From: Acidimicrobiia bacterium
GTDB taxonomy: Bacteria > Actinomycetota > Acidimicrobiia > Acidimicrobiales > Poriferisodalaceae
DNA length: 38,188 nt
Reading direction: 5' to 3'
Assembly: GCA_022827265.1 (NCBI GenBank)
Contig: JAJDTF010000004.1
Location: forward strand, 1-38,188
Of the stretch, positions 747 through 19,913 are shown in pieces. The notes beneath the pieces were generated by a model. That model had not been told where the DNA came from. It did not search any database and saw nothing but the letters and a program-made list of their open reading frames with translations. Position 1 is the stretch's first letter. Each line of letters opens with the position of its first letter. Position numbers and translations under genes: made by a program.

Positions 747-3700
747 ATGGACCTCAGTGACATCGAGGCGGGAGCGCGGCTGACCGGTGTCGTGGCCAAC
801 AGCGATGTCACTGTCGTGGCTGTTCAGATGCACGGGACGGCGTCCGCCACGTTGACCTACCGCACCGCGAGCGGCCAACTCGGTGAGCGGCTGATCACGA
901 TGGCCGATCTCGACGATGTCAGCGAGGTAGCTGAGAGCCACTGGTCCTTCGATGCGGATGGGGCCATGTTCAAGCTGGCGTCAGAAGCCCGGCGCATGCA
1001 GATGGCGCATCTCGCCGACCCGTTCGCCGCGGTGGACACGTCGAACATCGACCCCTACCCGCACCAGATCGACGCCGTCTACAACCGCCTCCTGACGCTC
1101 AAGCCGCTGCGGTTCCTGCTGGCCGACGACCCGGGTGCCGGCAAGACGATCATGTCGGGGCTGCTCATCCGCGAGCTAATGCTGCGCGGCGACGTGGCTC
1201 GGTGTCTCATCGTGGCCCCAGGCAGCCTTGTCGAGCAGTGGCAGGACGAGCTGTGGGACAAGTTCGGTCTCAGCTTCGACCTGATGTCGCGAGAGAGCAT
1301 CGAAGCATCCCGCACCGGCAACCCGTTTGTCGAGCGGAATCTGCTGGTCGCTCGCATCGACCAGGTGGCTCGGTCGGACGAGCTGCGTGCCCGCCTCGCC
1401 GCGTCCGAGTGGGACCTGGTGATCGTCGACGAGGCCCACAAAATGTCCGCTCACCGTTACGGCGACGAGTTGCGCCGCACCAAGCGCTTCGAAGTCGGCG
1501 AAGTGCTGCGCGAGTGCACCCGCCACTTCCTGCTGCTCACGGCCACGCCGCACAACGGCAAGAACGAGGACTTCCTGGCGTTCATGACGCTGATCGATCC
1601 CGAGCGGTTCGAGGGGCGCCTGCGAGCCACGGACGGCAGCGGCGCGCCCAGCGAAGTGCCTGATGTCAGTGACGTCATGCGCCGGCTGGTGAAAGAGAAC
1701 CTGCGGACCTTCGAAGGCAGGCCGCTGTTCCCCAAGCGCTACGCCCAGAGCCTGCAGTTCGAGCTGTCAGAACCCGAGACCGAGCTGTACGAGGCCGTCA
1801 CGGCCTACGTCCGTGACGAGATGAATCGGGCTGCTCGCATGACGGCTGAGGGGGATGCTCAGCGCGGCGTGATCGTCGGGTTCGCGCTTGCTGGCTTGCA
1901 GCGCCGGCTCGCGTCGTCGCCGGCCGCCATCTATCACTCGCTGCGACGTCGGCGCGATCGCTTGGCCGGCCAGGCAGCGGAGCTTCGGCAGCTCGCCGCG
2001 ACCGGGGCGCCCATACCCGTGCCCGAACTCCCCAAGGGTGTGCGCATCGCCGACTTGGAGGATTTCGACTTCGACGACTTTGACGAATCGGAGCTTGCCG
2101 AGCTGGAGAGCCTGACCGTCGATGCCGCCACAGCGGCCGCTACCGCCGACGAACTTGAGGCAGAAGTGCGGACTCTGGAATGGTTGGTGGAGCTGGCTGA
2201 CGGTGTTCGCAACAGCGGCGTGGACGCCAAGTGGACCCGGCTGCGAGACCTGCTGCGCGCTGAGCAGTTCGGCTCATCGCAGTGGAGCGCCGACCCTGAC
2301 GACGGAACCGGCACTCGCAAACTGATCGTGTTCTCCGAGCACCGCGACACGCTCGACTACGTCGCGGGCCGCATCGCTGCCGAGCTCGGCCGGCCAGATG
2401 CCGTCGTCACCATCCACGGCGGCATGAGGCGACAGGACCGCCGGGACACCCAAGACCGGTTCCGTGTCGATCCCACCGTGTCCGTGCTCGTCGCCACGGA
2501 CGCAGCCGGCGAGGGCGTGAATCTCCAAGTCGCCAACATGATGGTCAACTACGACCTGCCGTGGAATCCGAACCGCATCGAGCAGCGCTTCGGACGCATC
2601 CACCGGATCGGTCAGCGCAGGCCCTGTCACCTGTGGAACCTCGTTGCCCACGAAACGCGTGAAGGCCAAGTGTTCGAGCGGCTGTTCGCCAAGATCGAGC
2701 AGCAGCGAGAGGTGTACGGCGACCAGGTGTACGACGTGCTCGGCGACGCGCAGATCAACGTGTCGCTGCGGGATCTGCTGATGCGGGCGATCCAAGCCGA
2801 CACCGACCCTGCGCACGCCGAGTGGATGGACACTGTCATCGACGGTGAAATCGGCGAGCAGCTGCGCGAAGTCCTCGAGGAACGAGCCCTGGTGGCAGGG
2901 CTGGCTGACCCAGCGGCCAACGACGAAGTGCGACGCCGGATGGAGGAAGCCCGGGCTCGTCGGCTGCAGCCGTGGTTCGTGCACGACTTCTTCACCCAGG
3001 CGCTGCAGCTGTACGGCGGACGAATCTCGGGCCGGGAGCGAGGCCGCTACGAGATCACCCGAGTGCCTGCGTCGGTGAGAGCCAGCGCCGACCCCGCCCT
3101 CGGCCCCGTGCAGGATCGCTACGCGCGGGTGACCTTCGACAAAGACCACATGCAGCCCGATGGCGGTGCAGCTCGCACCCCTGGTCCGGCCGGAGACAGG
3201 GCCGAGCTGATTTCACCCGGCAGTGCGTTGCTGTCGGCGGTGGCCAGCAAGGTGCTCGATGATCACGGCGACACGCTGCGCCACGGTGCCGTGCTTGTGG
3301 ATAGCAGTGACCCTTCGACGGAACCACGACTGCTCGTGTACCTCGATCACGTAGTGACCGACGGCCGATTGGTGAACGGTGCCCGGCAGGTCGTGTCGCG
3401 CCGATTCCAGTACGTGGAGGTTGACCAGCAAGGCACAGCCAGCGACCCAGGTGCCGAGCCGTACCTGGAATATGCGTCGCTGACTGCCGAGCAGGAGGCG
3501 CTGCTGGCCGGACAGCTGGACACCGCATGGGCCGGCCCCGCGGTCGAGTCGGTTGCCCGCGATTGGGCGATTGAGCACTTGGCAGGGCCGCACCTTGAGT
3601 CGGTCGACGCCGTCGTTCAGGACCGAGTGGAGCGAGTCAGCGAGGCCGTTCGGGTTCGGCTTGAAGCCGAGATCCGCTACTGGGATCGACGCACGAACGA

Positions 3701-4316
3701 GATCAAGACGCAGGAGATTGCAGGCGGCAAGCCCACGCTGAATTCAGGCCTTGCTCGCAGGCGAGCCGACGAGCTAGCGGCGCGGCTGCTGCGCCGTCGT
3801 GCCGAGCTTGATTCGGAAGCCGATTTGCACAGCAGCCCGCCAACGGTGGTCGCCGCGGCGGTGATCGTGCCCCAGGGCCTGCTGGAAGATCTGGCGGGCG
3901 CCGCACCCGATCCGGCAGCTGCCGCCGACAAGGCGGAAACCGACCGGCGAGCCGTGGCAGCGGTCATGGCCGCCGAACGTGCCTTGGGACGCCAGCCAAC
4001 CGAACAGGAGCACGCCAATCCCGGCTTCGACATCATGTCGGTCGACCCTGAGACCGGCAACCACTACTTCATCGAAGTGAAGGGTCACCTGCCCCGCACC
4101 GACGAGATTCACGTCAGCGCCCGCCAAGTACGCCAAGCCCAGAACGACCCGGACCGTTGGCGACTGGCAGTGGTGTCAGTGCCCGATGACCCCAATGCCG
4201 AGCCCCAGGTTCGCTACCTGATCAAGCCCTTCGCTGACACGACAATGCCAACTGCCATGACGAAGGTCGGGCTCCAGGTGGCGGCGCTACTGGCCGACGC
4301 CGGACCACCCCGCTGA
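747..4316 (+). CDS. SNF2/superfamily 2 helicase with C-terminal DUF3883 nuclease-like domain (DISARM DrmD-like)
   Basis: A 1189-residue predicted DNA translocase. The first RecA-like lobe carries DDPGAGKT (Walker A, K133), VDEAH (D228-H231) and LLLTATPHNG. After an insert rich in acidic residues, the second lobe carries VFSEHRDT, ATDAAGEGVNL and the motif VI stretch QRFGRIHRIGQ. The C-terminal 100 residues match DUF3883: GFDI (D1095) followed by IEVKG (E1110, K1112), the D...ExK pattern of restriction-like nuclease folds. Helicases of this build accompany DISARM and related modification-dependent phage-defence systems. ATG 747 is chosen because AAGG lies 7 bases upstream; GTG 744 and TTG 708 are also in frame. 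It follows the RelE-like pair on the same strand. Its likely partners, the methylase and the HEPN/DUF499 gene, are 12 and 18 kb downstream. Helicase assignment is secure; participation in one system with those genes is inferred. Confidence 0.9.
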   Translation: MDLSDIEAGARLTGVVANSDVTVVAVQMHGTASATLTYRTASGQLGERLITMADLDDVSEVAESHWSFDADGAMFKLASEARRMQMAHLADPFAAVDTSNIDPYPHQIDAVYNRLLTLKPLRFLLADDPGAGKTIMSGLLIRELMLRGDVARCLIVAPGSLVEQWQDELWDKFGLSFDLMSRESIEASRTGNPFVERNLLVARIDQVARSDELRARLAASEWDLVIVDEAHKMSAHRYGDELRRTKRFEVGEVLRECTRHFLLLTATPHNGKNEDFLAFMTLIDPERFEGRLRATDGSGAPSEVPDVSDVMRRLVKENLRTFEGRPLFPKRYAQSLQFELSEPETELYEAVTAYVRDEMNRAARMTAEGDAQRGVIVGFALAGLQRRLASSPAAIYHSLRRRRDRLAGQAAELRQLAATGAPIPVPELPKGVRIADLEDFDFDDFDESELAELESLTVDAATAAATADELEAEVRTLEWLVELADGVRNSGVDAKWTRLRDLLRAEQFGSSQWSADPDDGTGTRKLIVFSEHRDTLDYVAGRIAAELGRPDAVVTIHGGMRRQDRRDTQDRFRVDPTVSVLVATDAAGEGVNLQVANMMVNYDLPWNPNRIEQRFGRIHRIGQRRPCHLWNLVAHETREGQVFERLFAKIEQQREVYGDQVYDVLGDAQINVSLRDLLMRAIQADTDPAHAEWMDTVIDGEIGEQLREVLEERALVAGLADPAANDEVRRRMEEARARRLQPWFVHDFFTQALQLYGGRISGRERGRYEITRVPASVRASADPALGPVQDRYARVTFDKDHMQPDGGAARTPGPAGDRAELISPGSALLSAVASKVLDDHGDTLRHGAVLVDSSDPSTEPRLLVYLDHVVTDGRLVNGARQVVSRRFQYVEVDQQGTASDPGAEPYLEYASLTAEQEALLAGQLDTAWAGPAVESVARDWAIEHLAGPHLESVDAVVQDRVERVSEAVRVRLEAEIRYWDRRTNEIKTQEIAGGKPTLNSGLARRRADELAARLLRRRAELDSEADLHSSPPTVVAAAVIVPQGLLEDLAGAAPDPAAAADKAETDRRAVAAVMAAERALGRQPTEQEHANPGFDIMSVDPETGNHYFIEVKGHLPRTDEIHVSARQVRQAQNDPDRWRLAVVSVPDDPNAEPQVRYLIKPFADTTMPTAMTKVGLQVAALLADAGPPR

Positions 4317-5601: not shown

Positions 5602-8600
5602 TCAGAGGCCTCGACGCCAAGTTTCGGCGTCGCGTTCGTGCACGCCGGCCTCGTGCTCGTAGCTCTGGGCCAGGCTGGTGAAGAGCGCAGCAGTGCGAGG
5701 CCATTCTTGGAAGCGTCGGCTGTCAGCTCTGTAGCGCTCGGCGAGTTCGCGCTCCTGATCACCGCCGTCGGTTACGCCGCGCCAAGTAACGCCGCGCTGG
5801 TTACGAACGGCCACAAGCAAGCCCCGGTCAACGTCATCGCTGTCCAAGCGGTCGAGGAGGTTGCGGACGGCCTCAGGCGGCCAATCGCCGTTGGCTTCCG
5901 CCGGGGACGAAGCCAGAGCAGTCCCGATCATCTGATCGCCAATATCGGCTCGGTCGATCGCAGCCAGCTGCTCGCGGGCGCGATCAATCCAGGCGTTCAG
6001 CGGATCCACATCGGGCTCCGTCGTCTCATCGAGGCTTGGTGCGAATTGCGTCTTGGGCCAGCCGTTCAAGACGTGGTGGGCGTTGAGCGCCATCTGGCGT
6101 TGGGATTCGCTTGACGGAGGCTGTTCGTCTGGCGAAGCGCTTGCAGGCTTGAAGGCCAATTCGACGAGTTGAACAAAGAGGTCGGGGTTGCGATCCATCT
6201 CTCGGTACAGATTCGGGGCGCTGTGCTCTCGACCGTGGCGCAGGTACGAGTGGTACTGCCATTCCAGCACTGCGACTCGACCAACGCCGAGGTGATCACG
6301 GTGCTCGTCAAGCACCTCGAAGAGCGTGGTGATCTTGTATCGAGTGCTATGTCGATGCCCGGTATCTCGGCCGGTGTGCTCGACCCACTGCTCTAGGTAA
6401 CCGGCGGCGGCGTCGGCATACTCCGGATGGGACGAGTGATCGCTAGAGCCGAAAGCGAGGATTTCGAGGGCGAGCCCGATGCGCCCCACCCCGTGCAGTC
6501 CGCGGCACACCTCAAGCAACTGGCTCAGTTCGTCTGGGTGCCCGAGGTCGTAGTAGTTCGCCCGGCTCCAGTACTCCTTGGCGACCTCAGCGCCGAACCT
6601 GTCTACCTGCGACCACGGCTTCTCGATTGGTGGCGGAGAGCGCAACACATCGGCCACGACCTGGGCTGATGGGCTGTGTGTCGCAAGCAGCTCATTGACG
6701 CCGTCCCACCCCAACGACGCGAATCGATGATCGAAATAGCCCAAGGCAACCTGAGTGACCGAATCGGTCGCTTCGTGCATGACGCCAAGCACCATCACGT
6801 CGAGCGTTGGGTCAACTCTTCCCAAGGCCACGCCAACTCGGCGGGGTTGGTCAACCGAGGCTGCAAAGTCGAGCACCGCGTTCACGCCGTTATCGGACAG
6901 GATCGCCGCGACGGCCTTCATCTGCTTCGGCCACAACGCTGCCTGATACTGCTCGTACCCGTCCGCTGCACTTACGCCGTCGATGTACAGCAGGCCCGAT
7001 GAGAACAGATAACCGAAGGCAATGGCCGGATCCGCCGGTCGCATCCTGTCCCGTACCTGTTCGATTGCTTCCACGCTCGGCTCGGGAAGTGCCCACTCGG
7101 CACCTCGGAACTCGCGGTGACTCGCCGTGAGTTCCAGGAGCGCGGGCCACACTCTGGACTTGAAAGTCTCATCGGAACCGGATGCCGCAAGTCGGTCGAG
7201 GGCAGAAATCGCGCTGGCCAACAGATCATTCGGCAGATCGGCCATGTGCTCGGCCAGATCGACCCAGCGCTGAGGGTCATTGCTGGCATCTTCGATGAGC
7301 ATCTCTGCGATGGATCGGGTCACGTTGGCGAATTCGGTTTGCATGACGATTGGCTGTGCCGGCCTCCAGTCACGAAATTCGGGCAACGTGCCAGAGGTTT
7401 GGACTTCGTGGCCGCTCGGCAGCATCGACAGCATCAGTTTCCAGCCAACGTTGGCATGGTTGCGTCGGAGCATGTGGATGGCCCGGAGGCGCGCCTCAGC
7501 ATCAGCGGATGTGTGAGGCATCCACGAGCAGAAAATCGACGCAAGACTCTCCAAGGGACGGTTGAGATCTCGCCCGCCGAATTGCGTCGCGTCCCGTCTG
7601 CTGGAGTCCAACTCGTCTAGCCGAGCGAGCACGTCAGCCACAGCCGACAGATGCTCGGGCGACCACGCAATGACTTCGAGCGCGTTCAGGACTCGGAGAT
7701 GAGGCGACGATGGTCCGAAGTCGATCGGGCTTGAGTTGCTGTCGGCGAACAGCTCTCGTGTGAAGGCATGTCGATCTGCGAGGCAACTGCGAAGCGCTTG
7801 CAGTAGGACGTCGGGAGCTGCCTCGCCGAGCAAGGGCAAGATGTCAACGAGTGCCAACCAAGTTCGTGGCATCGGGTCGTCGATGGCAGCGCGGAGCGCC
7901 TGCGAAGTGACCTTGTTGGCCAAGTCCGAAGTCTGCGATGCGCTCGCAACGAAATCGGGCGACAGACTGCCCGCGAGGGCGAGGGTGGTTGCCATTCCCC
8001 GCTTCAACCGCAGCGAGCATCTGCCAATCACACCGTCGAGGCGGGCACGGAGCAGGTCCTCGCCGGTCAGCTCCCGCAGCGGGTTGGCACCGCACATCAC
8101 TGCGAGCGCCGTCTCAGCAAACTTCTTGATGTCGCCCGGGGTGAGCTGATCGCGGAGCAGCACCCAGGTGTCAGCGGGGGAGACGCCGTACCACTGCTCA
8201 TCGACAGCGACCAGCGGCGAGTCAGCCGCGTCGAGCTTGCGCAGCATCTCCGTGGCCTCGTCGTAGCTAGTGCCGGCGAGCTGAGCGACGACCTCGCGGT
8301 CCCCCTCGCGGGTTTCGTCCCAGCCTCCGATCAGCAAGCACGCTCGCAGCGGCGCGTCGATATGCCCCTTCGCCCAGTCCGGAATGTGGAATGCGGGGTC
8401 CTTAGCGAGGCGCCGTCGGAGCGCAATCAAGCTCGTACGGGCGATCCTGCCGAGTTCATGCGCTTCATGCATCTCGAATCCCGCCGATTCGAGTTGTTTG
8501 GCGACCACCTCCGAGTCGACTGCGTCCAAGGTAATGGCCGCCTGCGGGCTCCCAGGTGCCGGCACGATCATTCGATGCGGACTCCCGGCAGTTCGATGTC

Positions 8601-10035
8601 TTGCGTATTCCGGTGAAGGCACCGCGATGGTCAGAACGGGTCCGCTTGTCTGCTGACCCGGCTGAGTCGACAGTGCCTCTTGCGCAAACAACCGCGCGGC
8701 AGCCTCGTCACTGTCCACGTAGAGCACCTGCGCGAGGTTCATGCTTTCGGCTTCGCCGGCGCTGAGCGCCGCTGTGATGAATGCGATGATCTCGTCGCGG
8801 TGGACTTGGCCTCCGATCGTCAGAATGCCTCGGCCACTGCTGCAGTGCTCGCGCAAATCGGTGGCTGCTTTTTCGCGTCCAGCAAGCACGACATCCGCAT
8901 CTAGGGGCGTACTCGTCGTCGCCAGCCACTTCTCCCACCAACGGGACAGAAGACTGATGCCCTCGGTCGGCTGGCCAAGCTGGTCCCGCATCCAGATGGT
9001 CGTGGCAATTGCGCACGAGAGCCAGTCTTCGAGATTGTCGACGTTCAGGCCTCTGACTCGGTCGAAGTCATCGTCTCTCGTACGTTCAGACTCGAATGAC
9101 CGCCGCTTGGTCCACGGGGCGCAAGCGGCCGCCACATACGCGATCTCGGCGCGTTGGTCAGGTGTCGAGTTCTTGACTCGCTTCTCGTAGTCGCGACTGG
9201 CCTTCTTCTTGAGGCCGTCCTGTTGGGTCGTGAGTTCCCACACTGACTTTCCTACGGGCACGAAGCGGTTCCCGCGGGCACATCTCACGATTTCGTCCAA
9301 GCCAGACAACGCCGTTCCGGTGCCACCAGGCATATCGATCCACTCGGCCGACGGCTCGGTCTCGGCGATGAGGCTCCGAACCAGTCTCGGAAACTCCTTC
9401 TCCCCGCGATCGGACTTCGCCCAGCGGATCAGATCATTCCGACTGACCCGCAGCGATTCAGGCACCGTAGGCACGAGATGGACAGCGGGTTTCATGGCAC
9501 GCGCGAGATCGCAGGCGAGTCCGTAGTCCGCCTCAGAGCAGAGAGCCAGCATTCCGCTGCCGCGAAGTGCTTCCGCCATGCGTCCGAGATCCCGGATTCG
9601 GTGCGCCGGACGGGGGCGCCGAGCGGAGAAGTCGCCGAGCCTCTGGCCCGACCCGATCCATTCGCGTAGCTCCGCCAGGTCTTCGGCGGCAAGGTCGAAC
9701 GCCTCATGCAGTTCGGCTGCGGTCATCGCTGCTAGATCGGCGCTGAGTTGGCTGTCGCCCCGGAGCTGTGCCTCGGCGACGATCTGATCAAGCCAGCGTC
9801 GCCTCGCAGCGTCGTCCTGTAGTGGGCCGAGAGCGTGCAGCCGGCGCCCCGCAGCTACCAGCACCTGGTCGCGCGCGTCGGTGCCACCCGAAGCGGACAC
9901 CATCCGCAACCCCGTGATCCAAGCGTTCTCGAAGTCGTAGAAACGGGTGGCCTTGGCGATGCCCTCTAGCGCCGCCTCAAGACAGCGTTGTGCAGACTCA
10001 TCCTCCGGCTCGACGACGGCTTCGGCGGCGCTCAT
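5602..10035 (-). CDS. Large multidomain protein of unknown function, probable defence protein
   Basis: A 1477-residue soluble protein. The N-terminal 200 residues are helical. Residues about 235-290 hold a conserved-looking block, SGLDEIV ... VPVGKSVWELTTQQ ... KKKASRDYEKR. The layout (D247, E267, then lysines 276-278) resembles a restriction-like nuclease core with a displaced lysine. The next segment (PWTKRRSFE ... NVDNLEDWL) also looks like a module I remember from large defence proteins. Residues about 395-420 (RGILTIGGQVHRDEIIAF) sit where a P-loop would be expected, but no GxxxxGK[ST] is present. The rest is helical-repeat-like. ATG 10035 is chosen because its ATGA overlaps the stop codon of the upstream small gene; a TTG at 10047 is less likely. 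I cannot name the family. The nuclease idea is an inference from motif layout. Confidence 0.75.
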   Translation of the reverse strand: MSAAEAVVEPEDESAQRCLEAALEGIAKATRFYDFENAWITGLRMVSASGGTDARDQVLVAAGRRLHALGPLQDDAARRRWLDQIVAEAQLRGDSQLSADLAAMTAAELHEAFDLAAEDLAELREWIGSGQRLGDFSARRPRPAHRIRDLGRMAEALRGSGMLALCSEADYGLACDLARAMKPAVHLVPTVPESLRVSRNDLIRWAKSDRGEKEFPRLVRSLIAETEPSAEWIDMPGGTGTALSGLDEIVRCARGNRFVPVGKSVWELTTQQDGLKKKASRDYEKRVKNSTPDQRAEIAYVAAACAPWTKRRSFESERTRDDDFDRVRGLNVDNLEDWLSCAIATTIWMRDQLGQPTEGISLLSRWWEKWLATTSTPLDADVVLAGREKAATDLREHCSSGRGILTIGGQVHRDEIIAFITAALSAGEAESMNLAQVLYVDSDEAAARLFAQEALSTQPGQQTSGPVLTIAVPSPEYARHRTAGSPHRMIVPAPGSPQAAITLDAVDSEVVAKQLESAGFEMHEAHELGRIARTSLIALRRRLAKDPAFHIPDWAKGHIDAPLRACLLIGGWDETREGDREVVAQLAGTSYDEATEMLRKLDAADSPLVAVDEQWYGVSPADTWVLLRDQLTPGDIKKFAETALAVMCGANPLRELTGEDLLRARLDGVIGRCSLRLKRGMATTLALAGSLSPDFVASASQTSDLANKVTSQALRAAIDDPMPRTWLALVDILPLLGEAAPDVLLQALRSCLADRHAFTRELFADSNSSPIDFGPSSPHLRVLNALEVIAWSPEHLSAVADVLARLDELDSSRRDATQFGGRDLNRPLESLASIFCSWMPHTSADAEARLRAIHMLRRNHANVGWKLMLSMLPSGHEVQTSGTLPEFRDWRPAQPIVMQTEFANVTRSIAEMLIEDASNDPQRWVDLAEHMADLPNDLLASAISALDRLAASGSDETFKSRVWPALLELTASHREFRGAEWALPEPSVEAIEQVRDRMRPADPAIAFGYLFSSGLLYIDGVSAADGYEQYQAALWPKQMKAVAAILSDNGVNAVLDFAASVDQPRRVGVALGRVDPTLDVMVLGVMHEATDSVTQVALGYFDHRFASLGWDGVNELLATHSPSAQVVADVLRSPPPIEKPWSQVDRFGAEVAKEYWSRANYYDLGHPDELSQLLEVCRGLHGVGRIGLALEILAFGSSDHSSHPEYADAAAGYLEQWVEHTGRDTGHRHSTRYKITTLFEVLDEHRDHLGVGRVAVLEWQYHSYLRHGREHSAPNLYREMDRNPDLFVQLVELAFKPASASPDEQPPSSESQRQMALNAHHVLNGWPKTQFAPSLDETTEPDVDPLNAWIDRAREQLAAIDRADIGDQMIGTALASSPAEANGDWPPEAVRNLLDRLDSDDVDRGLLVAVRNQRGVTWRGVTDGGDQERELAERYRADSRRFQEWPRTAALFTSLAQSYEHEAGVHERDAETWRRGL

Positions 10036-10451
10036 GGTGCTTCCCAATCGTAAGAGGTGATCGCGTCAGGGCGAACGCCAATTCCAGCTCCTTCGAACGC
10101 CGCCACGGCGACCTCGAGCGCGCTCGTTCCTGGCTGGTAATGGCCGCTCATGTCGTTGAGTGCCGAGACGATCATCGTCGTCCCGTCGTACTCGACCGCG
10201 AACTCGCCTGCCGCCAGCACGGGCGCCCCGCTTGCGAGCACGGCGTGGGAGATGTGCCGGTACCGCTGTTGCCTGGGCGCCGCTACGAGTCCGCCTCCAG
10301 TCAGGACGACGAAAATCATGTCGACGCCTGCCGTCGCAAGCAGGTCGAAGGCTGCGCTGGGGATGCTGACGGGAACGATGCCGGCCTCGCGAGCGGCCTC
10401 CCGCTCTTGCTCCAGCAGATGTGGGTAACGGTTGTAGTACGGGGGTGACAA
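10032..10451 (-). CDS. Small SGHY-motif protein coupled to the 1477-residue gene
   Basis: A 139-residue protein with the signature RHISHAVL (65-72), PVLAAGEF (77-84) and NDMSGHYQP (99-107). I remember this combination from small stand-alone domains and from the ends of polymorphic toxins, without a firm activity. No ATG is available upstream of the conserved part, so TTG 10451 is taken; the frame is open back to 10493. The stop overlaps the next gene as ATGA, so the two proteins are probably made together and may work as a pair. It diverges from the plus-strand promoter at 10503. Confidence 0.6.
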   Translation of the reverse strand: MSPPYYNRYPHLLEQEREAAREAGIVPVSIPSAAFDLLATAGVDMIFVVLTGGGLVAAPRQQRYRHISHAVLASGAPVLAAGEFAVEYDGTTMIVSALNDMSGHYQPGTSALEVAVAAFEGAGIGVRPDAITSYDWEAP

Positions 10452-10502
10452 AGCGTCGCTACTGCCTTCACAGATACTCGATTCGACAGCACTCTACGAT
10501 GA

Positions 10503-10531
10503 TTGAAATATCATGAAACTATGTATATAGT
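10503..10531 (+). promoter_or_regulatory. Near-consensus sigma70-type promoter
   Basis: TTGAAA (10503-10508) and TATAGT (10526-10531) each match the consensus at five of six positions and are 17 bases apart, in an AT-rich island within GC-rich DNA. The small inverted repeat ACTAT-GTAT-ATAGT (10518-10531) overlaps the -10 and could bind a regulator. Transcription would begin near 10538 and cross the methylase relic into the gene pair at 10785. Confidence 0.6.
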
Positions 10532-10620
10532 ATGTGCGTCGAGTCGTTGCTGGTGCTGGCATCGCTGATCGGCGGCATCGGTGGCTACCGTGACGGACCG
10601 TGACCGGTGTCGCAAGCAGA

Positions 10621-10742
10621 CCGAAGCTGATTGAGGTAGCGCTGCCGCTGGCGGCGGCTCGAGCGGTGACCTGAACGTCGACGGCGAACTACTCGTCGGC
10701 TATAGGGGACTGAGACCAAACAACAACCTGCTGCCAACGGTG
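10621..10742 (+). pseudogene. Decayed 5' fragment of a DUF1156 DNA methylase gene
   Basis: Three blocks align in order with the intact methylase at 16280-16502: 10621-10656 (34 of 36 bases identical), 10657-10673 (15 of 17) and 10724-10742 (17 of 19). The first two are joined by loss of exactly 90 bases. The loss lies between two TTGGCGGC repeats present in the intact gene (16307-16314 and 16397-16404). The fragment still reads PKLIEVALPLAAARAVT and then a TGA at 10672-10674. A length difference of 11 bases before the third block also breaks the frame. No similarity was seen beyond 10742. It is a relic of either a duplicate or a related methylase. Confidence 0.85.
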
Positions 10743-10784
10743 TGTATAGGCGTTGGGTTGACTCGCACGCGGCATCATGTGGCC

Positions 10785-11516
10785 ATGCCTTCTGGCGACC
10801 CCCCGGGCGTGATGACGAATGCAGCGTCTCCTCCGCCGCGGTTGCCGGAATCGCTCGAACCGTGGTGGACACCCGAGCGCGATGAGCTGAACAGCTGGTT
10901 CGAGAACGTCGCCCCTCACCTAGCGCCTCTGTACCGGGCGGCTGTTCGAATGACTGAGGATGAGGAGTTTCCAGGTCGTGTCCACTTCATTGCACACGCG
11001 ACCCGCGAGATCCGCAACCGCTTGCCGGACGCGCTCGACGGCACGCTCAAGTTGCCGAGGTTGGATTATCGCCCCTGGGTTGAGAGGATCTGCGAGCAAT
11101 GGGTCGAGCAAGGATTCTTGCTAGATGGGACAGACGCATCCTTAAATGAAGCGGCAACGCCAGGGTCCGACGATGCGACGGTCGAGGTCTCAGTTGAGCT
11201 TGTTGCAGCTGTGGGACGCTTGGTCACGAAGCACCACGAGGTCGAGATAACCAAGGATGCGCTATTGGTGCCGAGGTTCGAGGCCCTGGCCGGGGAGGGT
11301 CCTCATCCTCCGTACGTATTCGATCGCTGGAGACGAGCATCGCGATCTGCCGAGAAGTTCGCCCACGCCAGAGACAGAGAACTTCCGCCGGAGGCGGACA
11401 GCGAGTGGACTCAGAACTTCCGAGATTTTGAGGGATTTCTGAGGGCAATATCTCAGCGTGCCCAGGAGAACATTGAGGAACTCGACGAACTCCTGAAAGC
11501 AGCGAACAGCCAATGA
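10785..11516 (+). CDS. Unrecognised protein, first of a coupled pair
   Basis: A 243-residue soluble protein, acidic, mostly helical by eye, with no signal or membrane segment. It contains the conserved-looking patch HFIAHATREIRNRLPDAL (about residues 68-85) and ends in a helical tail (NIEELDELLKAANSQ). I do not recognise the family. ATG 10785 is taken, with ATG 10812 (MTNAASPPP) as an alternative that removes a weak N-terminus. The stop overlaps the next start as ATGA at 11513, so the two genes are translationally coupled. The promoter at 10503 could drive both. Confidence 0.7.
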   Translation: MPSGDPPGVMTNAASPPPRLPESLEPWWTPERDELNSWFENVAPHLAPLYRAAVRMTEDEEFPGRVHFIAHATREIRNRLPDALDGTLKLPRLDYRPWVERICEQWVEQGFLLDGTDASLNEAATPGSDDATVEVSVELVAAVGRLVTKHHEVEITKDALLVPRFEALAGEGPHPPYVFDRWRRASRSAEKFAHARDRELPPEADSEWTQNFRDFEGFLRAISQRAQENIEELDELLKAANSQ

Positions 11517-14416
11517 GCGCCTGGAACCCACCTGACGAGAACCACCTGGCGGAGCTGCAGCGCCTGGCGGCACGTCGCGAGAATCGCACATACTTCTTCG
11601 ACCGTCTGGAGAATCCAGAGTGGGTGCCGGCGCTAGCGGAGCGCGGGTACTTTGACAGCCCGCCAGACCCGGTGCGCGACGAGGAGCAGGGAACCATCTG
11701 GTTCCCGCCGTGGCCTGAGGGTCGATACCTGAGCCGCATGGCTTCCAAGGCCCCGGATGCAGTGACTGCTGTGCTTGAGCGCGTGCCTCCGACGAGCAAT
11801 CCGGCAGCGACGCGCACTCTCTTGGAAGCGGCTCAGGCGCTTCCGGACGACCATTTCCCCCAGCTCTCAGAAACCGTATTGCGGTGGCTTCAACTGCCCA
11901 CCGGAACCCACTTCGCCAGTGATTTTGCCGAAGAAGCTGCTTCAGTCATTTCACGGCTGGCGCGTACCGGTTCAACTGAAGTTTGTCTTGAGGCCACTCG
12001 GGCACTTCTGGCGCCTGAGCGTCGCGGCGGTGCGACCGAGTCTGAAGAGAGCGATGAGTTTCGATTCTCTAAGCCAAAGGTCGTTGGCAGACTTGATGAT
12101 TGGCTCTATGAGCGCGTAATTGAGCAGCTCTTGCCGGATCTCGTGGATGCCACGGGCATCGACGGACTGAAGTTACTTTCGTCGTTGCTCGACCAAGCCT
12201 TGAGGCTGAGCAGCTGGGAAGGAGACCCGACCGACGAGGCGGACTACTCGTACATGTGGCGGCCTGCCGTCGAAGAGCACGAGCAGAACTTCCGCGACAG
12301 CGTGTGCGACCTACTCGTCGGGGCCGTGAGAGACGCAGCAGTGCGGTTGACGGGCGCTTCCGAGGACGATCTTGAAGCAGCAGTGCTGCAACTCGAGAAG
12401 GGCACCGTCTTGCACCGCCGCATCGCTCTGCACGTGCTGGCGCAAGCGACCGGTGGCAGCCATCTCGCAGCTGAGCGCATCACGGATAGCGCTCTGTTCG
12501 ATGACTACCGCTTCAAGCACGAGTACGCCGGACTGCTGCGAAGCCGGTTCGGAGAACTGTCGATGGAAACGCGTCGAGTGTTCTTCGATTGGGTTCTCGC
12601 CGGGCCAGATCTTGACGACTACCGCCGATGGCGCACTGCTCAGGATGCCTCTGCTCCTAGCGAAGCCGACGAAGCCGCGTACCGGGCACGCTGGCAGCGA
12701 GACTGGCTGAGCTTCGTATCCGACCATCTCGCTGGTGACTTGGCTGCGCTCCACAAAAGGCATCTGCAGCGCTACGGCGAGGCCGAGCATCCAGATTTTC
12801 TCACTTGGACATCGAGCTGGTCGGGGCCGGCAAGCCCGGTGACCCAAGACACGATGACCTCATGGCCGCCGAAGAAAGTCGTTGAGTACCTCAAGGAATG
12901 GCGACCTGACGCTGAAGGTGAGCACTTCGGAGCGACAAGAGAAGATGTTGGCCGCATCTTCAAGGACGCCGTCTCCGACAGGGCAGCGGCGTTCACGGGG
13001 GTGGTCGACGAGATCGCCCTTCTGGATCCAACATATGTTCGTCATTTCTTCGACGGCATCGAAGCTGCCGTCAAGAACGGTGCCCTCATCAGCTGGGGCG
13101 GGATGCTGCGTCTCATGGAAACTGTGGCGAGGCGTCCCTTGGCCGATGACCACGACCACTTCGAAGATCCTCACTGGGACCGCGACTCGGGCTGGCGTTG
13201 GACGCGCGGAGCAATTGCCTCCTTGATTGAGGTCGGGGTAGCAGAACGCGATAACGGGATTCCGTCTGAGCGGTACGAGTCCGCTTGGCGGATTCTCGAA
13301 CTACTGATGGACGACCCGGATCCGACCCCGGAATACGAGGCAACCAACCTCGCCAGTATGGGCCCACTCGCGCTGTCCATGAATACCAACCGCGGCAAGG
13401 CGATGCGAGCGGTCCTGTCGTACTCGCTGTGGCGCCGTCGAGGGCTGCAGGAACAGGGCATGGATACTTCGGCAGGGCTTGATCTGCTCCCCGAGGTTCG
13501 GTCCCTTCTGGAGGAGCGCCTGAAGCCCGAACAAGACCCATCGATCGCCGTACGAGCTGTGTACGGGGAGCGGCTCCCCTGGATTGCGATGCTTGACGAA
13601 CGCTGGGTCGCTGGACGCTTGCCGCAGATCTTCCCGAAAGATCAGCATCTAGCCGCTCTCAGAGATGCTGCATGGAACACGTACATCTGCTGGTGCAGGC
13701 CGCTCGACTCCATGCTTGACCTGCTGCGAGATGAGTATGACGCCGCTATCGAGCGAGTCCCTTCCAGCGGCACACGAGACCTGTCGAACTCTGAAGATGT
13801 GGACCAGAAGCTCGGCGAGCATCTCATCACCTACTACTGGCGGAGTCGGTTGCCACAGTCGACGCTTGACCGATGGTTCGAGGTAGCCGATGACAATCTC
13901 GCGTGGCGCAGTATGGAGTTCGTGGGGCGAGCGCTGCGAAACACCGAAGGCGACGTCGAGCAGTCCGTATTGGAGCGGATTCGTGATCTTTGGAACTGGC
14001 GGATCGGAGTCATCCAGAACCAGCCGGAAAAGCACAAGCTGGAGGCAAGCGCGTTTGCCGCCACGTTCGTGTCATCCAAGTTCGACGAGGAATGGTCGCT
14101 TGCCGCGCTTGAGTCCACGGTTAACGCAAGCGGTCCAAAGTGGCTGGGGCGAGAGGTAATCGAACGCTTGGCGGTGATCGCCGAAGCGAAGCCGACGATA
14201 GCTACACACATCACCCGACGAATTCTCGAAGGCGCCACTAATGATTGGGATCACATCGCTTGGAGAGACCAAGTTCAAGACATACTGAGAGCGACGATCG
14301 ACTGCTCTGACAGTGAGACCGCCGACAACCGGTCCGCGATCATTGACTACTACATCAGGCGCGGTTACTTCGACTTCAGAGTCTTCGGAAAAGAACCCGA
14401 ACAACGGTTGCCATAA
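11513..14416 (+). CDS. Unrecognised 967-residue protein, second of a coupled pair
   Basis: A large soluble protein with an N-terminal motif WFPPWPEGRYLSRMA (about residues 62-76). Long stretches of paired helices follow (PAATRTLLEAAQALP, FAEEAASVISRLA and others), suggesting an alpha-solenoid scaffold. No Walker motif, nuclease signature or membrane segment is visible. It overlaps the preceding gene by four bases and converges with the AIPR gene, leaving 29 bases between stops. Position inside the island and strict coupling to a small partner fit a two-gene defence cassette, but no function can be read from the sequence. Base composition is lower in GC than the flanking helicase and methylase genes in places. 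Confidence 0.75.
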   Translation: MSAWNPPDENHLAELQRLAARRENRTYFFDRLENPEWVPALAERGYFDSPPDPVRDEEQGTIWFPPWPEGRYLSRMASKAPDAVTAVLERVPPTSNPAATRTLLEAAQALPDDHFPQLSETVLRWLQLPTGTHFASDFAEEAASVISRLARTGSTEVCLEATRALLAPERRGGATESEESDEFRFSKPKVVGRLDDWLYERVIEQLLPDLVDATGIDGLKLLSSLLDQALRLSSWEGDPTDEADYSYMWRPAVEEHEQNFRDSVCDLLVGAVRDAAVRLTGASEDDLEAAVLQLEKGTVLHRRIALHVLAQATGGSHLAAERITDSALFDDYRFKHEYAGLLRSRFGELSMETRRVFFDWVLAGPDLDDYRRWRTAQDASAPSEADEAAYRARWQRDWLSFVSDHLAGDLAALHKRHLQRYGEAEHPDFLTWTSSWSGPASPVTQDTMTSWPPKKVVEYLKEWRPDAEGEHFGATREDVGRIFKDAVSDRAAAFTGVVDEIALLDPTYVRHFFDGIEAAVKNGALISWGGMLRLMETVARRPLADDHDHFEDPHWDRDSGWRWTRGAIASLIEVGVAERDNGIPSERYESAWRILELLMDDPDPTPEYEATNLASMGPLALSMNTNRGKAMRAVLSYSLWRRRGLQEQGMDTSAGLDLLPEVRSLLEERLKPEQDPSIAVRAVYGERLPWIAMLDERWVAGRLPQIFPKDQHLAALRDAAWNTYICWCRPLDSMLDLLRDEYDAAIERVPSSGTRDLSNSEDVDQKLGEHLITYYWRSRLPQSTLDRWFEVADDNLAWRSMEFVGRALRNTEGDVEQSVLERIRDLWNWRIGVIQNQPEKHKLEASAFAATFVSSKFDEEWSLAALESTVNASGPKWLGREVIERLAVIAEAKPTIATHITRRILEGATNDWDHIAWRDQVQDILRATIDCSDSETADNRSAIIDYYIRRGYFDFRVFGKEPEQRLP

Positions 14417-14445: not shown

Positions 14446-16182
14446 TTAGGGTAGAGATGCGAGCACTTCGCCAACAAAACCACGGCCTTTGGCAATCTTG
14501 TCCATTGATTCATCCGTGCTAGCCATTCTCTGCGCCAAGACTGCACGGACCTGACTGAGACACGACAACAGATCGGCGTCCGTTAGGGCCCGACTATCAT
14601 CTGCCAAGACAGCGAGTTGACGCGGTTCTGTGACCGGTGAACCCACAAGCTTGGCAGCAGCGAGCATCGCTACGTGAAATCGCAGATTGGTCCGCTCGGG
14701 CGCCGATGTGTTGGCCTCTGATGATTGAAGGAATCCGTCGACTTCCTTCTGTGCTCTCGCAGCCCATAGGTATACATTCAGCGGCGTATCATCTGAGAAT
14801 ATCTGGACGTAGTCAGCATCTGATTTCAACAAAGATGATGGCCGCGCGCGCGCATCGTCAGGACGGCTTAGACCAAGTGCCATAACCGACTGGGCGAGAA
14901 AAGGAATACCAATGATGCGACTCAGCGGCTTACCAATATTGCGGTAGTAATTCTTGCGTCGATCGTAGAACCAGCCATGGCCCTCAAAAAACGCTTCTAC
15001 TTTGCGCTGTATTTCGTCCGTGGCTCGTAACGATGCAACAGGAATGTTTGTCTGCTTATTTGTCGCCCGGATCACCCTGTCACGTGTGGTCTCATCGTTT
15101 GTTTCAAGGATGCGAACGAGCAAGCTTCTAGACAGCATCTGGTCATCGGGAGATGAATCCTTGAGCGCCAAAAACGTTGCATACGACGTTTGAAGCCCAT
15201 TGACGATTTGTACATCATCAAGGGTGTATGTCTTGCCTTGAATCGATACTCGACTGCAGATGATTGTTACTCCGTTGTTCAGCCACCAAAAGTCTGGAGC
15301 GTCCGCGTCGACAAGTGAACTTTGGATTTCCTTATTCACTTCGACGCCGCCCTGATAGTCTCGCACGTTCCAGTCAAAGATGTGACGTCGCAAGTCGCCG
15401 AATTCGTCTTTCAAGAAGTCAACGTAGTCGCCAAGCGACACGAGGGCAACGTGACTAGTCCCGCTCGTTGCATTCTCTTGGTAAGTCAGTTGAAGCGTGT
15501 AACCCTTGTTGCCGCTTGCCGCTTGCCATAGTTCGTCTGCTCCGACAAGCGTAACTGAACCCTCAGCGCCCGTGACCACCGTCGCAAGTTGCTTCTTGAG
15601 GTCCTCGGCTTTTGCATGAACTTTTGCGTGAATGCCAGATGTGTCGCCACGCGTGGCGTAAGTGAACTCGACCGCGACGTCTGGGTAGCGAACAGCTAAG
15701 AGCTCAAGTGCACTTCGAAAGAGCGAGAATTGCTCGATGACTTGAGGGGAATACAACTTTGTCAGTTCGGCAACTTCAAGTTCGAGGTTGAGAAGTCTGT
15801 TCAGCGAGGAACTCGCCAAGTCTATGGTGGCTTCCGTAAACGACGGGGTTCGTTTTGCCTGTATCACATGCAGCTTTATTGGAACATGTTGGCTTATGGT
15901 TCTAATCGGGAATCCCTCATCAAAGAGTTCAGCGTCTTCCGTAAGCAATTGTTCGCCGACGAATGTGTAGGTCCCATCGATACCGCCATCATCGGATCCG
16001 CCTACTATTCCTCCCATGATTTCGTCAGTCGAAAGATTGTAACGCTTGAGTACTTGCTGGCATGCGAATATCTCAAACGCGACGTCGTCAGATGGTTTGG
16101 TGTCAGTTTCGCTCCATTGAGCGGAAACCAATTGGTCGAGGAGTACGCGTGCATTGCTGGGAGTTGTCTTTGTCAACGTCAT
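14446..16182 (-). CDS. AIPR-family abortive-infection protein with nuclease-like N-terminus
   Basis: A 578-residue protein matching the AIPR (abortive infection phage resistance) family. The hallmark blocks are DFWWLNNGVTIICSR (297-311) and IVNGLQTS (326-333). The N-terminal region carries an E37, GGIDG (D69) and VIQAK (Q108, K110) arrangement. This is the E/D...QxK version of a restriction-like nuclease site, so DNA or RNA cleavage is plausible. AIPR proteins protect populations by halting infected cells. ATG 16182 has GAGG three bases upstream. Hand counts of two 60-base rows inside the gene give 28 and 31 G+C, against 45 in a row of the adjacent methylase. This suggests recent arrival from a lower-GC source. 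It faces the methylase divergently across 82 bases. Confidence 0.88.
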   Translation of the reverse strand: MTLTKTTPSNARVLLDQLVSAQWSETDTKPSDDVAFEIFACQQVLKRYNLSTDEIMGGIVGGSDDGGIDGTYTFVGEQLLTEDAELFDEGFPIRTISQHVPIKLHVIQAKRTPSFTEATIDLASSSLNRLLNLELEVAELTKLYSPQVIEQFSLFRSALELLAVRYPDVAVEFTYATRGDTSGIHAKVHAKAEDLKKQLATVVTGAEGSVTLVGADELWQAASGNKGYTLQLTYQENATSGTSHVALVSLGDYVDFLKDEFGDLRRHIFDWNVRDYQGGVEVNKEIQSSLVDADAPDFWWLNNGVTIICSRVSIQGKTYTLDDVQIVNGLQTSYATFLALKDSSPDDQMLSRSLLVRILETNDETTRDRVIRATNKQTNIPVASLRATDEIQRKVEAFFEGHGWFYDRRKNYYRNIGKPLSRIIGIPFLAQSVMALGLSRPDDARARPSSLLKSDADYVQIFSDDTPLNVYLWAARAQKEVDGFLQSSEANTSAPERTNLRFHVAMLAAAKLVGSPVTEPRQLAVLADDSRALTDADLLSCLSQVRAVLAQRMASTDESMDKIAKGRGFVGEVLASLP

Positions 16183-16264
16183 GTCCTCGAGAATGTGGGA
16201 GTCTCAGTTACGGCCGAGCGCCGAGAATCAACGAGGCATGTGTTTAGCAGGTAGGTTTCTCTTG

Positions 16265-19048
16265 GTGCGTGATGGTAGGCCGAAGCTGATTGAGGTGGCG
16301 CTGCCGTTGGCGGCGATCAACGCTGAGGCTGCGCGGGAGAAGTCGATTCGGCATGGACATCCGTCAACGCTGCACCTGTGGTGGGCGCGGCGGCCCTTGG
16401 CGGCAGCTCGGGCGGTGATCTGGGCTTCGCTGGTGGATGATCCATCAGCGGAGGGATACCGAGACCCTGATGGCAACCTGCTGGCGACGGTGGAGGCACA
16501 GGAGGCAGAGCGGCAACGTCTGTTCCGCATCTTGAAGCGGCTGGTCAGGTGGGAGAACTCCAACGACGCTGAGGTCCTGGCGGAAGCTCGGGCCGAGATC
16601 GACCGAGCCTTCCCGGCCGGCCCGCCGCCGATCCTGGATCCGTTCGCCGGCGGTGGAGCGATTCCGCTGGAGGCGCAGCGGCTGGGCCTGGAAGCACTCG
16701 CTGGTGATCTGAACCCAGTCGCTGTGCTGATCAACAAGGCAATGATCGAGATACCCCCGCGCTTTTCGGGTCTGCCACCCGTGCATCCTGATATTGACAA
16801 GAGCCTGACCACTTGGGAGCGGGCGCAAGGACTTGCAGCGGATGTTGGGGCGTACGGGCGCTGGATGCGGGACGAGGCCGAACGACGCATCGGCCACCTC
16901 TATCCGGATGCCGCCGGTCCCGACGGCGAGAAGCTGACGCCGATCGCCTGGATATGGGCGCGGACGGTCGAGTCACCTGATCCGAGTTGGTCAGGCCATG
17001 TGCCCCTTGTGGCGTCGTGGACGCTCTCCAAGAAGAAGGGCAAGCCGACCGTTTGGATCGAGCCGAACATCGATCGGGAGTCGCAGACCATCAGCTACGA
17101 GATTCGCGAAGGAGGCGGGCCCAGCTACGAACGCACTGTGGACCGAGGCAACGGAACATGCCTCGCCACGGGGGCAGCGATTCCTGCAGAGCGTGTTCGG
17201 CAGCAGGGGCGGGATGGCTTGCTGGGTGTCCAGTTGATGGCTGTGGTTGCGGAAGGTCCGGCAGGGCGGGTGTATTGCCCCGTCTCGGAGGCCCAATCCG
17301 CGTTTGCGCAACTCCCAGTACCAGACGCAGCACCCAAGGGCGCATTGGACCCATATCCACGCAGCATCTCCATCGATCTGTATGGACTCGATGAGTGGTG
17401 GAAGCTGTTTACGCCCCGTCAGCTCACGGCGTTGACGACGTACTCGGACCTGCTATCCGACGTTGCGAACAAGGCAGGCAGAGATGCGATGGCAGCAGGA
17501 ATGCAGGATGATGGCGAACGGTTGCGGGAAGGGGGACGCGGCGCCGCCGCATATGCCGATGCGATTATGACCTACTTGGCCTTCGCCATCGACAAGTGTG
17601 CCGATTACTGGTCAACGATCGCTACTTGGAGTAACTCCGGCGAGTTTGTTCGAGGGACATTTGGTCGCCAAGCCATTCCTATGACCTGGGACTTTGCGGA
17701 AATCAATCCGTTCTCATCATCGACGGGAAGCTGGATGTCGATGGTCGGCTGGCTCAACAAAGCCGTCGGGCAGCTTCCGGCCCCTCAGTCAGTCGCAAGC
17801 GCAGTTCAAAGAGACGCACGTGCCCATGTTGGCGAAGGATCAGGCACCATGGTCTCAACAGACCCGCCCTACTACGACAACGTTGGCTATGCCAACCTGT
17901 CTGATTTCTTCTATGTCTGGCTGCGGCAGAACGCTGCCGAAGTCTGGCCCGACGAGTGTTCGACACTGCTTACACCGAAAGCCGAAGAGTTGATAGCGAA
18001 CCGCCACCGGGCAGGATCGAAGGCGCAAGCTGCGGAGTATTTTGAGTCGGGCGTTGCGGATTTCATGGGGGCGCTCGCCGCCGCGACGAACAGCCAAGTG
18101 CCTGCAACCGTGTACTACGCCTACAGGGCCACCGAATCGATCGGCGGCGAGGCGCGCAGCACCGGGTGGGACACCTTCCTGTCGGCAGTCATCGGTGCCG
18201 GGATGCAGGTCGTAGCGACATGGCCCTTGCGCACAGAGAAGCCTGGGCGGATGCTCTCGGTAGGCACCAACGCGCTGGCGTCGTCGATCGTCTTGGCATG
18301 CCGAAAGCGACCAGATGCGGCAGTTATGGCCACGCGCGGCGAGTTCATCGCTGCGCTGCGGGCTGAACTACCCGAGGCCGTGCACATCTTGCAGTCGGGA
18401 AACATCGCACCGGTTGACATGGCGCAGTCCACCATCGGACCCGGGATCAAGGTGTTCTCGCGGTACGCCAAGGTTGTCGAGGCTGACGGCTCGGCGATGC
18501 GGGTGTCAGCGGCGCTGACGATCATTAATGATGTCTTGGGAGAAGTCCTAGACGGCGAGGAAGCTGAGCTCGATCGAGACACCCGGTTCGCGCTGACTTG
18601 GTTCTCGGAATACCAATACGACACTGGGTCCTCCGGCGACGCGGAGAGCGTGGCCAAGGCGAAGAACACCTCGCTCGAAGGCCTCACGGAGTCGGGTATC
18701 GGTGAGGCTCGGGCCGGCAAGTTCCGGCTCTACCAGCGCTCGGAGCTGGACCCGCACTGGTCGCCGGCCGAAGACGACCGGTTCACGATCTGGGAGGCGT
18801 TGCAGTACCTCGTGGCCGCCTTGGAGCGCTCCGAGAGCGAAGCCGCCGATCTGCTGCACACCCTCGGCGGCAACGGCGACCGGGCACGCCAGCTCGCCTA
18901 CCTGCTGTACCAGAAGGCCAACGACAAGGGCTGGGCGGCCGAAGCTAACGCCTACAACAGCCTCATTACCGCATGGCCCAGCCTGCGCGAGAGTGCCATG
19001 GCAGTGGCTGCCCGAGCCACAGCGCCGGTCGAAGCTCAGATGCTCTGA
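16265..19048 (+). CDS. DUF1156-domain DNA methyltransferase
   Basis: A 927-residue predicted DNA base methylase. It opens with the DUF1156 signature RPKLIEVALPLAAINAEAA and HGHPSTLHLWWARRPLAAAR. The S-adenosylmethionine site is ILDPFAGGG (D125) and the catalytic motif is DPPYYDNVGYANLSDFFY (D533-Y536), the pattern of amino-methylases acting on adenine N6 or cytosine N4. The large middle and C-terminal regions probably recognise the target. GTG 16265 is chosen because AGGTAGG lies nine bases upstream and homologous starts begin here. ATG 16238 and TTG 16154 are in frame but lack a placed ribosome site. In modification-linked defence, such an enzyme marks self DNA. A decayed copy of its 5' end lies at 10621-10742. 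Confidence 0.92.
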   Translation: MRDGRPKLIEVALPLAAINAEAAREKSIRHGHPSTLHLWWARRPLAAARAVIWASLVDDPSAEGYRDPDGNLLATVEAQEAERQRLFRILKRLVRWENSNDAEVLAEARAEIDRAFPAGPPPILDPFAGGGAIPLEAQRLGLEALAGDLNPVAVLINKAMIEIPPRFSGLPPVHPDIDKSLTTWERAQGLAADVGAYGRWMRDEAERRIGHLYPDAAGPDGEKLTPIAWIWARTVESPDPSWSGHVPLVASWTLSKKKGKPTVWIEPNIDRESQTISYEIREGGGPSYERTVDRGNGTCLATGAAIPAERVRQQGRDGLLGVQLMAVVAEGPAGRVYCPVSEAQSAFAQLPVPDAAPKGALDPYPRSISIDLYGLDEWWKLFTPRQLTALTTYSDLLSDVANKAGRDAMAAGMQDDGERLREGGRGAAAYADAIMTYLAFAIDKCADYWSTIATWSNSGEFVRGTFGRQAIPMTWDFAEINPFSSSTGSWMSMVGWLNKAVGQLPAPQSVASAVQRDARAHVGEGSGTMVSTDPPYYDNVGYANLSDFFYVWLRQNAAEVWPDECSTLLTPKAEELIANRHRAGSKAQAAEYFESGVADFMGALAAATNSQVPATVYYAYRATESIGGEARSTGWDTFLSAVIGAGMQVVATWPLRTEKPGRMLSVGTNALASSIVLACRKRPDAAVMATRGEFIAALRAELPEAVHILQSGNIAPVDMAQSTIGPGIKVFSRYAKVVEADGSAMRVSAALTIINDVLGEVLDGEEAELDRDTRFALTWFSEYQYDTGSSGDAESVAKAKNTSLEGLTESGIGEARAGKFRLYQRSELDPHWSPAEDDRFTIWEALQYLVAALERSESEAADLLHTLGGNGDRARQLAYLLYQKANDKGWAAEANAYNSLITAWPSLRESAMAVAARATAPVEAQML

Positions 19049-19163
19049 GCTGCCGGTGACGTCTCCCGAACGTCCAAGGCGACGCCGTCCGCAGCATCAG
19101 CCCGGCACAGCGGCGTACAGCGCCATTCCGAGGTTCAATCGGACATGCCGATGACGCGTGGCG

Positions 19164-19445
19164 TCAGCCGTACTGCGCTGCGGCCGCTTCTGTGGTCGTG
19201 TCGAGCAGTTCGGCGATGCGCTCCCACGTCGATCCCGCCGCATGGGCGTCGGCTATCAGCGCTCTGATGCGGTCGTGGTCGAGCTGCCCGGTGACCTCAG
19301 CTCGCTGCAGCGCGCACCTCAACCAGTAGTCGGCCGCTGGGTAAACGGGCGCATCGCCGGGATCGGCGGACTCGAAATAGTCGGCAATCTCGTCGCAATT
19401 GGCGATCATCTCGTCGATGGACATGTTGCGGAGATCAGTCGCCAT
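19164..19445 (-). CDS. Antitoxin-like protein, copy 1
   Basis: A 93-residue acidic helical protein, paralogous to the product of 22357-22650. The two share CDEIADY, ES-DP, a central helix and the C-terminal pattern A-G-TW-RI-E-L followed by QYG or RYG. The C-terminal part resembles a small helix-turn-helix (STWERIAELLDTTTEAAAAQYG). It lies four bases downstream of the toxin-like gene, and GAGGTG overlaps that gene's stop codon as the ribosome site. Partner order and size fit a toxin-antitoxin pair; the antitoxin role is inferred. Confidence 0.68.
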   Translation of the reverse strand: MATDLRNMSIDEMIANCDEIADYFESADPGDAPVYPAADYWLRCALQRAEVTGQLDHDRIRALIADAHAAGSTWERIAELLDTTTEAAAAQYG

Positions 19446-19449
19446 GGGT

Positions 19450-19695: not shown

Positions 19696-19722
19696 GCCTT
19701 GGACCGTAGGAAGTGCGCCCGC

Positions 19723-19744: not shown

Positions 19745-19913
19745 ACGGCACAGCGGGCAGCGATGCCCCACCGGCCAGGGTGATCGCCGGGACGAGGATG
19801 TCGCAGCCTCAAGCATCCTCCCGAGCCGCAACGCGGCCCCTTCGATGTCACACCCCTCTGGTGAGCTTGCTGGTGGCGGAACCGCCGCGAGTGGGGCAAG
19901 CGAACACGCTTGC

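Follow-up and report, generated by a model that had tools for sequence, protein, structure and literature searches.

A stump of hmaB, the DUF1156 methylase gene of the HMA anti-phage system, lies between hmaA and the intact hmaB of the locus analyzed here. Judged by its sequence, it is the start of such a gene: decayed coding DNA that has kept its native upstream region. We favor, with a probability of about 0.68, the reading that the stump belonged to the resident hmaB, and that a donor segment carrying cargo genes and its own hmaB recombined into the resident gene, with the left joint inside the resident start. Same-genus relatives have the corresponding empty site, the stump is colinear with it, and the intact gene aligns as another allele. 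From this arrangement we infer that a single event joined the segment by homology on one side and without it on the other.

Anatomy of the locus

The window, that is, the whole 38,188-nt stretch analyzed, is an entire contig (C97) of a 3.8-Mb genome assembled in 163 contigs. It encodes an HMA system on the plus strand: hmaA (helicase with NOV_C; 708-4316; Pfam, PADLOC HmaA 1277 bits), hmaB (16262-19048, likely starting with the GTG at 16265; Pfam, PADLOC HmaB 1041 bits), and hmaC (DUF499 ATPase with HEPN_Swt1; 22915-26244; Pfam). Same-genus loci used for comparison are L004 (JAJDZE010000145.1, genome G1576; the same locus as L266), L265 (G1574), L268 (G1573), and L269 (G1577); the intact hmaB allele of the window is nearest that of G1577.

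Two sets of cargo occupy the hmaA-hmaB interval, together with smaller ORFs. The older set (5602-10451, minus strand) consists of a 139-aa ORF (10032-10451) and a 1481-aa ORF (5602-10047) and lies directly upstream of hmaB in L004, L005, and L265. Neither ORF has a Pfam or NCBIfam match, and the 1481-aa ORF has none in PADLOC. The same operon occurs in same-genus L267 (G1579), where no HMA gene was found in 19 kb, and may thus form an independent module. Next come the putative upstream region of the resident hmaB (10452-10599, plus strand), which is shared with the minus-strand operon and is 86% identical to L266 over 161 nt and 76% to L265 over 162 nt, and the stump itself (10600-10742, plus strand). 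Within this upstream region, GGCTACCGTGA at 10583 is also present in L265, L266, and L268 and is absent from L269. The newer cargo begins with a plus-strand pair (10740-14416): a 258-aa ORF (10740-11516) and, just after it, a 967-aa ORF (11513-14416) whose product has partial similarity to the Dsr1 profile (PADLOC Dsr1 135 bits; NCBIfam Dsr1 32.5 bits, far under the cut-off of 1400). An AIPR/AbiU gene on the minus strand (14446-16182; Pfam AIPR, PADLOC AbiU 602 bits) completes it. In successive 1.5-kb steps, the GC content of the newer cargo is 0.605, 0.612, 0.561, and 0.530, against 0.614-0.667 in the rest of 1-27 kb; only the right half stands out, as the left half is hardly under its lowest neighbor (0.614).

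Outside the interval, a 462-aa protein encoded between hmaB and hmaC (20926-22314), with no match in Pfam, PADLOC, or NCBIfam, is related at 93% to a protein of L269 and at 33-35% to proteins encoded between hmaA and hmaB in L265, L268, and L269. Positions 189-695, which hold a 142-aa ORF upstream of hmaA, are 89% identical to L269 10904-11410, upstream of hmaB there; small modules thus also switch sides of hmaA.

How sound is the match between the stump and hmaB? The three blocks of the original prediction recurred with the same counts: 34/36 (10621-10656 versus 16280-16315), 15/17, and 17/19 (10724-10742). Within the window, blastn returned blocks in order and on one strand, as expected from the claimed common orientation, at 36/39 (E 7.7e-11), 27/33 (E 8.8e-4), and 17/19 (E 0.13). 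The local alignment score of 63.8 compares with a mean of 21.1 and a maximum of 41.0 in 2000 dinucleotide shuffles, the control against which the relic had been proposed to be judged. For 42 relic bases, the best ungapped place elsewhere in the window is hmaB (35/42), the next best reaching 25/42. The proposed span of 10621-10742 held as a match but not as the beginning of the gene: a GTG aligned with the L004 start lies upstream, at 10600, from which conserved codons extend to 10656 and similarity to about 10742. Around and upstream of this GTG, positions 10030-10618 are homologous to DNA upstream of hmaB in relatives.

The decay itself is as first described. A loss of exactly 90 bases between repeats appears as a 90-nt in-frame gap between TGGCGGC repeats (relic 10648, intact 16397), at relic coordinates 10648-10656, and the in-frame TGA and the frameshift (a 1-nt gap) come after it. 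The first 39 bases differ from intact hmaB at three positions, all silent (AGA/AGG, GTA/GTG, CTG/TTG). The relic also aligns to a DPDGNLL segment that is common to intact hmaB and L004 and missing from 12 other relatives in the alignment; the hmaB genes of L265, L268, and L269 have similar segments.

Presumed resident and incoming alleles of hmaB

An uninterrupted locus had been expected to run from the DNA upstream of the relic straight into a full methylase, and L004 has this arrangement. It is 88% identical to window positions 10380-10625 over 246 nt and continues into a 942-codon hmaB, with the same 139-aa and 1481-aa genes upstream and, downstream, 121-aa and 296-aa genes at 93% amino acid identity to those of the window (the latter cut by the contig end). 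It is borne out also in L265, which has the same gene order as L004 and matches the window at 79% over 275 nt before an hmaB that stays open to the contig end (290 codons). In L268, 77 nt of leader and start (81%) precede a full hmaB, without the 1481-aa gene. Because all of these run the leader straight into hmaB, the window DNA from the stump to hmaB is extra relative to them. The L004 1481-aa protein is only 57% identical to that of the window, so the loci differ elsewhere too; the region recombines often, and a single event is not proven.

Where does the intact gene come from? It is nearest L269 in 32/38 sliding windows, the exceptions lying at 16715-16790 and 18596-18821. Amino acid identity in the central region is 79% to L269 and 58% to each of L266 and L268, while the ends do not separate the alleles (91% and 89-93%). 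The DNA upstream of the intact gene has no match in the four same-genus loci L265, L266, L268, and L269, unlike the DNA upstream of the stump, which matches L266 (86%) and L265 (76%). The relic is identical to intact hmaB at 94/129 sites and to L004 at 95/129; at the 23 sites where those two differ, it agrees with intact hmaB at 9, with L004 at 10, and with neither at 4. Its second part (95 bases) is equally near intact hmaB, L265, L266, and L269 (64-66/95; L268 unaligned), and the stump itself therefore cannot tell the alleles apart.

The original prediction had left two alternatives, cargo that entered with duplication of the methylase start or replacement of an older methylase. Replacement fits better than plain duplication, given an intact hmaB of another allele, its unmatched upstream DNA, and a stump that resembles L004 as much as it does the intact gene. 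The same findings, another allele with unrelated upstream DNA, depart from insertion with a long target duplication. The two alternatives partly merge in that the cargo probably came with a donor hmaB. Near the 3' end of hmaB, L266 is as close to the window as L269 is, and positions 18601-20552 are 94% identical to L266, which suggests, without proof, a right-hand joint in that vicinity. The resident locus may also have had a G1577-like hmaB already before the insertion.

Under the favored reading, the donor segment would have consisted of the Dsr1-like pair and the AIPR gene followed by its own hmaB, and would have recombined into the resident hmaB. Its right side would be anchored by homology within hmaB, perhaps near the 3' end, and its left side would have joined the resident gene within its first ~75 codons and without long homology. 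The old upstream region, start, and stump would stay in place, with the new cargo in the middle and an intact hmaB bearing the donor start downstream. The useless stump would then decay by the 90-nt deletion between short repeats, the TGA, and the frameshift. In general form, one donor end would recombine in hmaB or hmaA and the other would join inside the resident copy, whose cut end becomes a stump.

A search for the AIPR gene in 296 genomes of the window's class gave four distant matches besides the window and no donor locus. Among plasmids, AIPR matched 76 records, all at <60% identity (47.5% in the best of 8 listed), and the Dsr1-like protein matched 8 records at 25.3% at most. As no donor locus was found, the position and the nature of both joints in the window are tentative.

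Stumps in other HMA loci

Is the window a singular case? A survey of 249 loci yielded 156 distinct intact hmaB genes, 148 of them with at least 1 kb upstream; several of these loci are MAG contigs. A gene counted as "intact" if its tblastn chain began no later than residue 12 and ran past 60% of the query, a definition that takes in some split genes and perhaps other DUF1156 methylases. Eight same-strand stumps of the hmaB start were found upstream of hmaB in 6/148 loci (the window, L010, L078, L174, L197, and L217), a non-random, enriched sample for which L174, L197, and L217 were taken because of extra start fragments in listings. In the part not chosen for stumps, 2/73 loci were accepted (L078 and L010). 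The opposite-strand control gave one borderline match (L256, E 4.5e-5), which is not counted as a stump. The hosts are an Acidimicrobiia MAG (L010), a Desulfobacteraceae MAG (L078), and members of the class of L078 (L174), the Thauera class (L197), and the Arthrospira class (L217). The L010 stump is the weakest, at 32/41 nt (E 8e-5) plus similar leader DNA. In the four loci with hmaA in view (the window, L078, L174, and L217), the stumps have ORFs on either side; L078 has a single ORF of 113 aa before its first stump.

Outside the repeat-rich Arthrospira-class loci, strong upstream copies in a segment scan came only from the first 210 nt of hmaB. Copies of internal segments are found mostly in Arthrospira-class loci, on both strands and many per locus, and are taken for dispersed repeats without a separate repeat test; elsewhere there are three borderline matches (L134, L024, and L132). 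Matches to the hmaA 3' end in L218, L240, L242, L244, L246, and L247 were likewise set aside as such repeats, again with no dedicated test; those in L134 and L217 stayed in the analysis. Weak matches in L012, L013, and L034 were not counted (6 real matches at ≥31 bits versus 1 in five shuffles), nor were start fragments that are lone or broken with no intact hmaB in view (L122, L175, L177, L179, L180, L181, L185, and L187). A common breakpoint at WWARR codons, seemingly shared by L078, L174, and L175, was abandoned as the stumps of L197, L217, and the window end elsewhere. Stumps of the hmaC start were found in 0/81 loci; with gaps >800 nt in only 24 of these, the sample is too small to set hmaB apart from hmaC.

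Two side observations concern hmaB itself. In L057 and L074, the first hmaB is followed downstream by additional long copies in tandem. In Arthrospira-class loci (L218, L240, L242, L244, L245, and others), the match to hmaB is frequently fragmented, with a break near residue 246 in several of them, and short repeats occur both within the gene and upstream of it.

The clearest locus is L217, from the cyanobacterial class, whose stumps separate toxin-antitoxin-like modules: hmaA is followed by nucleotidyltransferase and HEPN genes, a first stump, HicB/HicA, a second stump, a small gene with a PIN gene, and hmaB. (The names HicB, HicA, HEPN, NYN, and PIN rest on Pfam.) Each stump is an hmaB start (121/133 and 188/203 to the intact start) fused to an hmaA 3' end (54/60 and 48/52). 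Both joints read alike, the hmaB and hmaA ends meeting in a GGAAAGAAC-like stretch present in both genes. The small gene has no Pfam match, and we label the pair VapBC-like. In L243 (477/628 nt) this last module is the sole occupant of the hmaA-hmaB gap, as is a HicB-like part of the other module in L241 (156/199 nt). L134, from the window's class, is a mirror case, with 343 nt of the hmaA 3' end (84%) repeated inside the gap. The same process has probably acted in other HMA loci, leaving stumps of hmaB 5' or hmaA 3' ends between successive modules.

Among 124 loci with hmaA upstream of hmaB, the gap is at most 120 nt in 41 and exceeds 200 nt in 83, reaching at least 800 nt in 69. Seven of 10 scanned proteins upstream of hmaB in relatives have a Pfam match: SIR2-like, Abi_C, peptidase M78, HATPase, C5 methylase, UvrD helicase, and DUF4062/HATPase. 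By annotation alone, the gap in Escherichia coli (L194-L196) is occupied in AW1.7 and ES7 by an AAA ATPase gene plus an HNH gene, and in LH13-b by just a 375-nt ATP-binding gene; hmaB of ES7 is annotated as two genes. We tentatively propose, although the odds are somewhat against it, that the hmaA-hmaB gap is an integrase-free cassette slot, in which recombination within the two conserved flanking genes stacks modules and exchanges them between strains, each module having an hmaA 3' end and an hmaB 5' end as its borders. Stumps would then record the order of arrival, the newest module being next to hmaB if hmaB anchors.

Alternative routes and comparison with known systems

What else could have left an hmaB start on both sides of the newer cargo? 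The main rival, unlikely in our estimate, fits L217 equally well: a circle bearing the cargo together with the 5' end of hmaB, and in L217 with the 3' end of hmaA as well, would integrate by a single homologous crossover, duplicating the start and giving an intact gene with a donor 5' and a resident 3' part. The hmaB 5'-hmaA 3' joints of L217 are those expected of a circularized hmaA3'-cargo-hmaB5' unit, and the window has the same anatomy, but no circular form was seen, and the exchange must reach far into hmaB as the intact gene is G1577-like in its central region too. It is improbable that the hmaB start was duplicated in tandem in this lineage and the cargo then inserted between the copies. 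Both copies do lie on the same strand; however, a recent duplicate should follow intact hmaB rather than divide between it and L004 (9 versus 10 of 23 sites), and the regions upstream of the two copies are unrelated.

Integrative elements are known to insert at the 5' end of conserved genes, as would a site-specific recombinase or transposon aimed at the hmaB start. We rate this route as very improbable: the stumps end at different codons, roughly 15 to 76, with no constant joint, and Pfam detected no recombinase family among the 18 window proteins scanned. Pfam, PADLOC, and NCBIfam gave no recombinase among the larger newer-cargo proteins scanned. Chance similarity or an assembly artefact is hardly credible. 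The contig does come from a fragmented assembly, yet the stump and the intact copy differ (36/39), the shuffle control and colinearity with two relatives argue for a real match, and the same pattern occurs in other genomes.

Recombination of a donor segment into the resident hmaB, the reading we prefer, bears on the open question of how unrelated systems come together in defence islands that lack obvious mobile elements. Conserved core genes of one defence system look like docking sites, and left-over gene ends like a readable record of past insertions and of the newer cargo. Similar scars in unrelated bacteria suggest that such clusters commonly acquire additional genes by this route. Stumps can therefore point to candidate defence genes, and the process is testable by comparison and transformation assays.

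Restriction-modification units, for example in Helicobacter, insert with long target duplication. The window likewise has a defence gene between two copies of a resident sequence and an empty site in relatives; here, in contrast, a complete hmaB of a different allele takes the place of the second copy, and the targeted gene belongs to the core of a defence system. The HMA system frequently occurs with Septu, according to the PADLOC paper (PMC8565338), and DUF499-centred BREX-related type 1 systems are treated in PMC12839542. The window shares with the HMA system of these sources the helicase, the DUF1156 methylase, and the DUF499 ATPase; the available portions of both accounts do not describe methylase-start stumps or cargo stacking between hmaA and hmaB. 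Searches of the literature on HMA/DUF1156, defence islands, displacement, and target duplication gave no stump-leaving insertion in anti-phage operons among the matches listed.

In integron gene-cassette arrays, modules are stacked between repeated sequences and their order of arrival is readable. Unlike these, the HMA loci studied here revealed no integrase or constant recombination site. Integron arrays are compared with the effector arrays of type VI secretion in excerpts of Kirchberger et al. (PMC5361080), who suggest that homology-facilitated illegitimate recombination "perhaps" acts there beside ordinary homologous recombination. As far as those excerpts go, the likeness is that a module is inserted in a conserved cluster, the end of the displaced gene is left behind, and arrays arise from repeated events. 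Effector 3' ends and old immunity genes are left in the type VI arrays, whereas methylase 5' ends or a helicase-gene 3' end remain here; the setting is an anti-phage operon, and the cargo flanking these ends on the two sides is unrelated. These differences aside, the mechanism proposed for the window is akin to the displacement suggested for effector arrays of type VI secretion.
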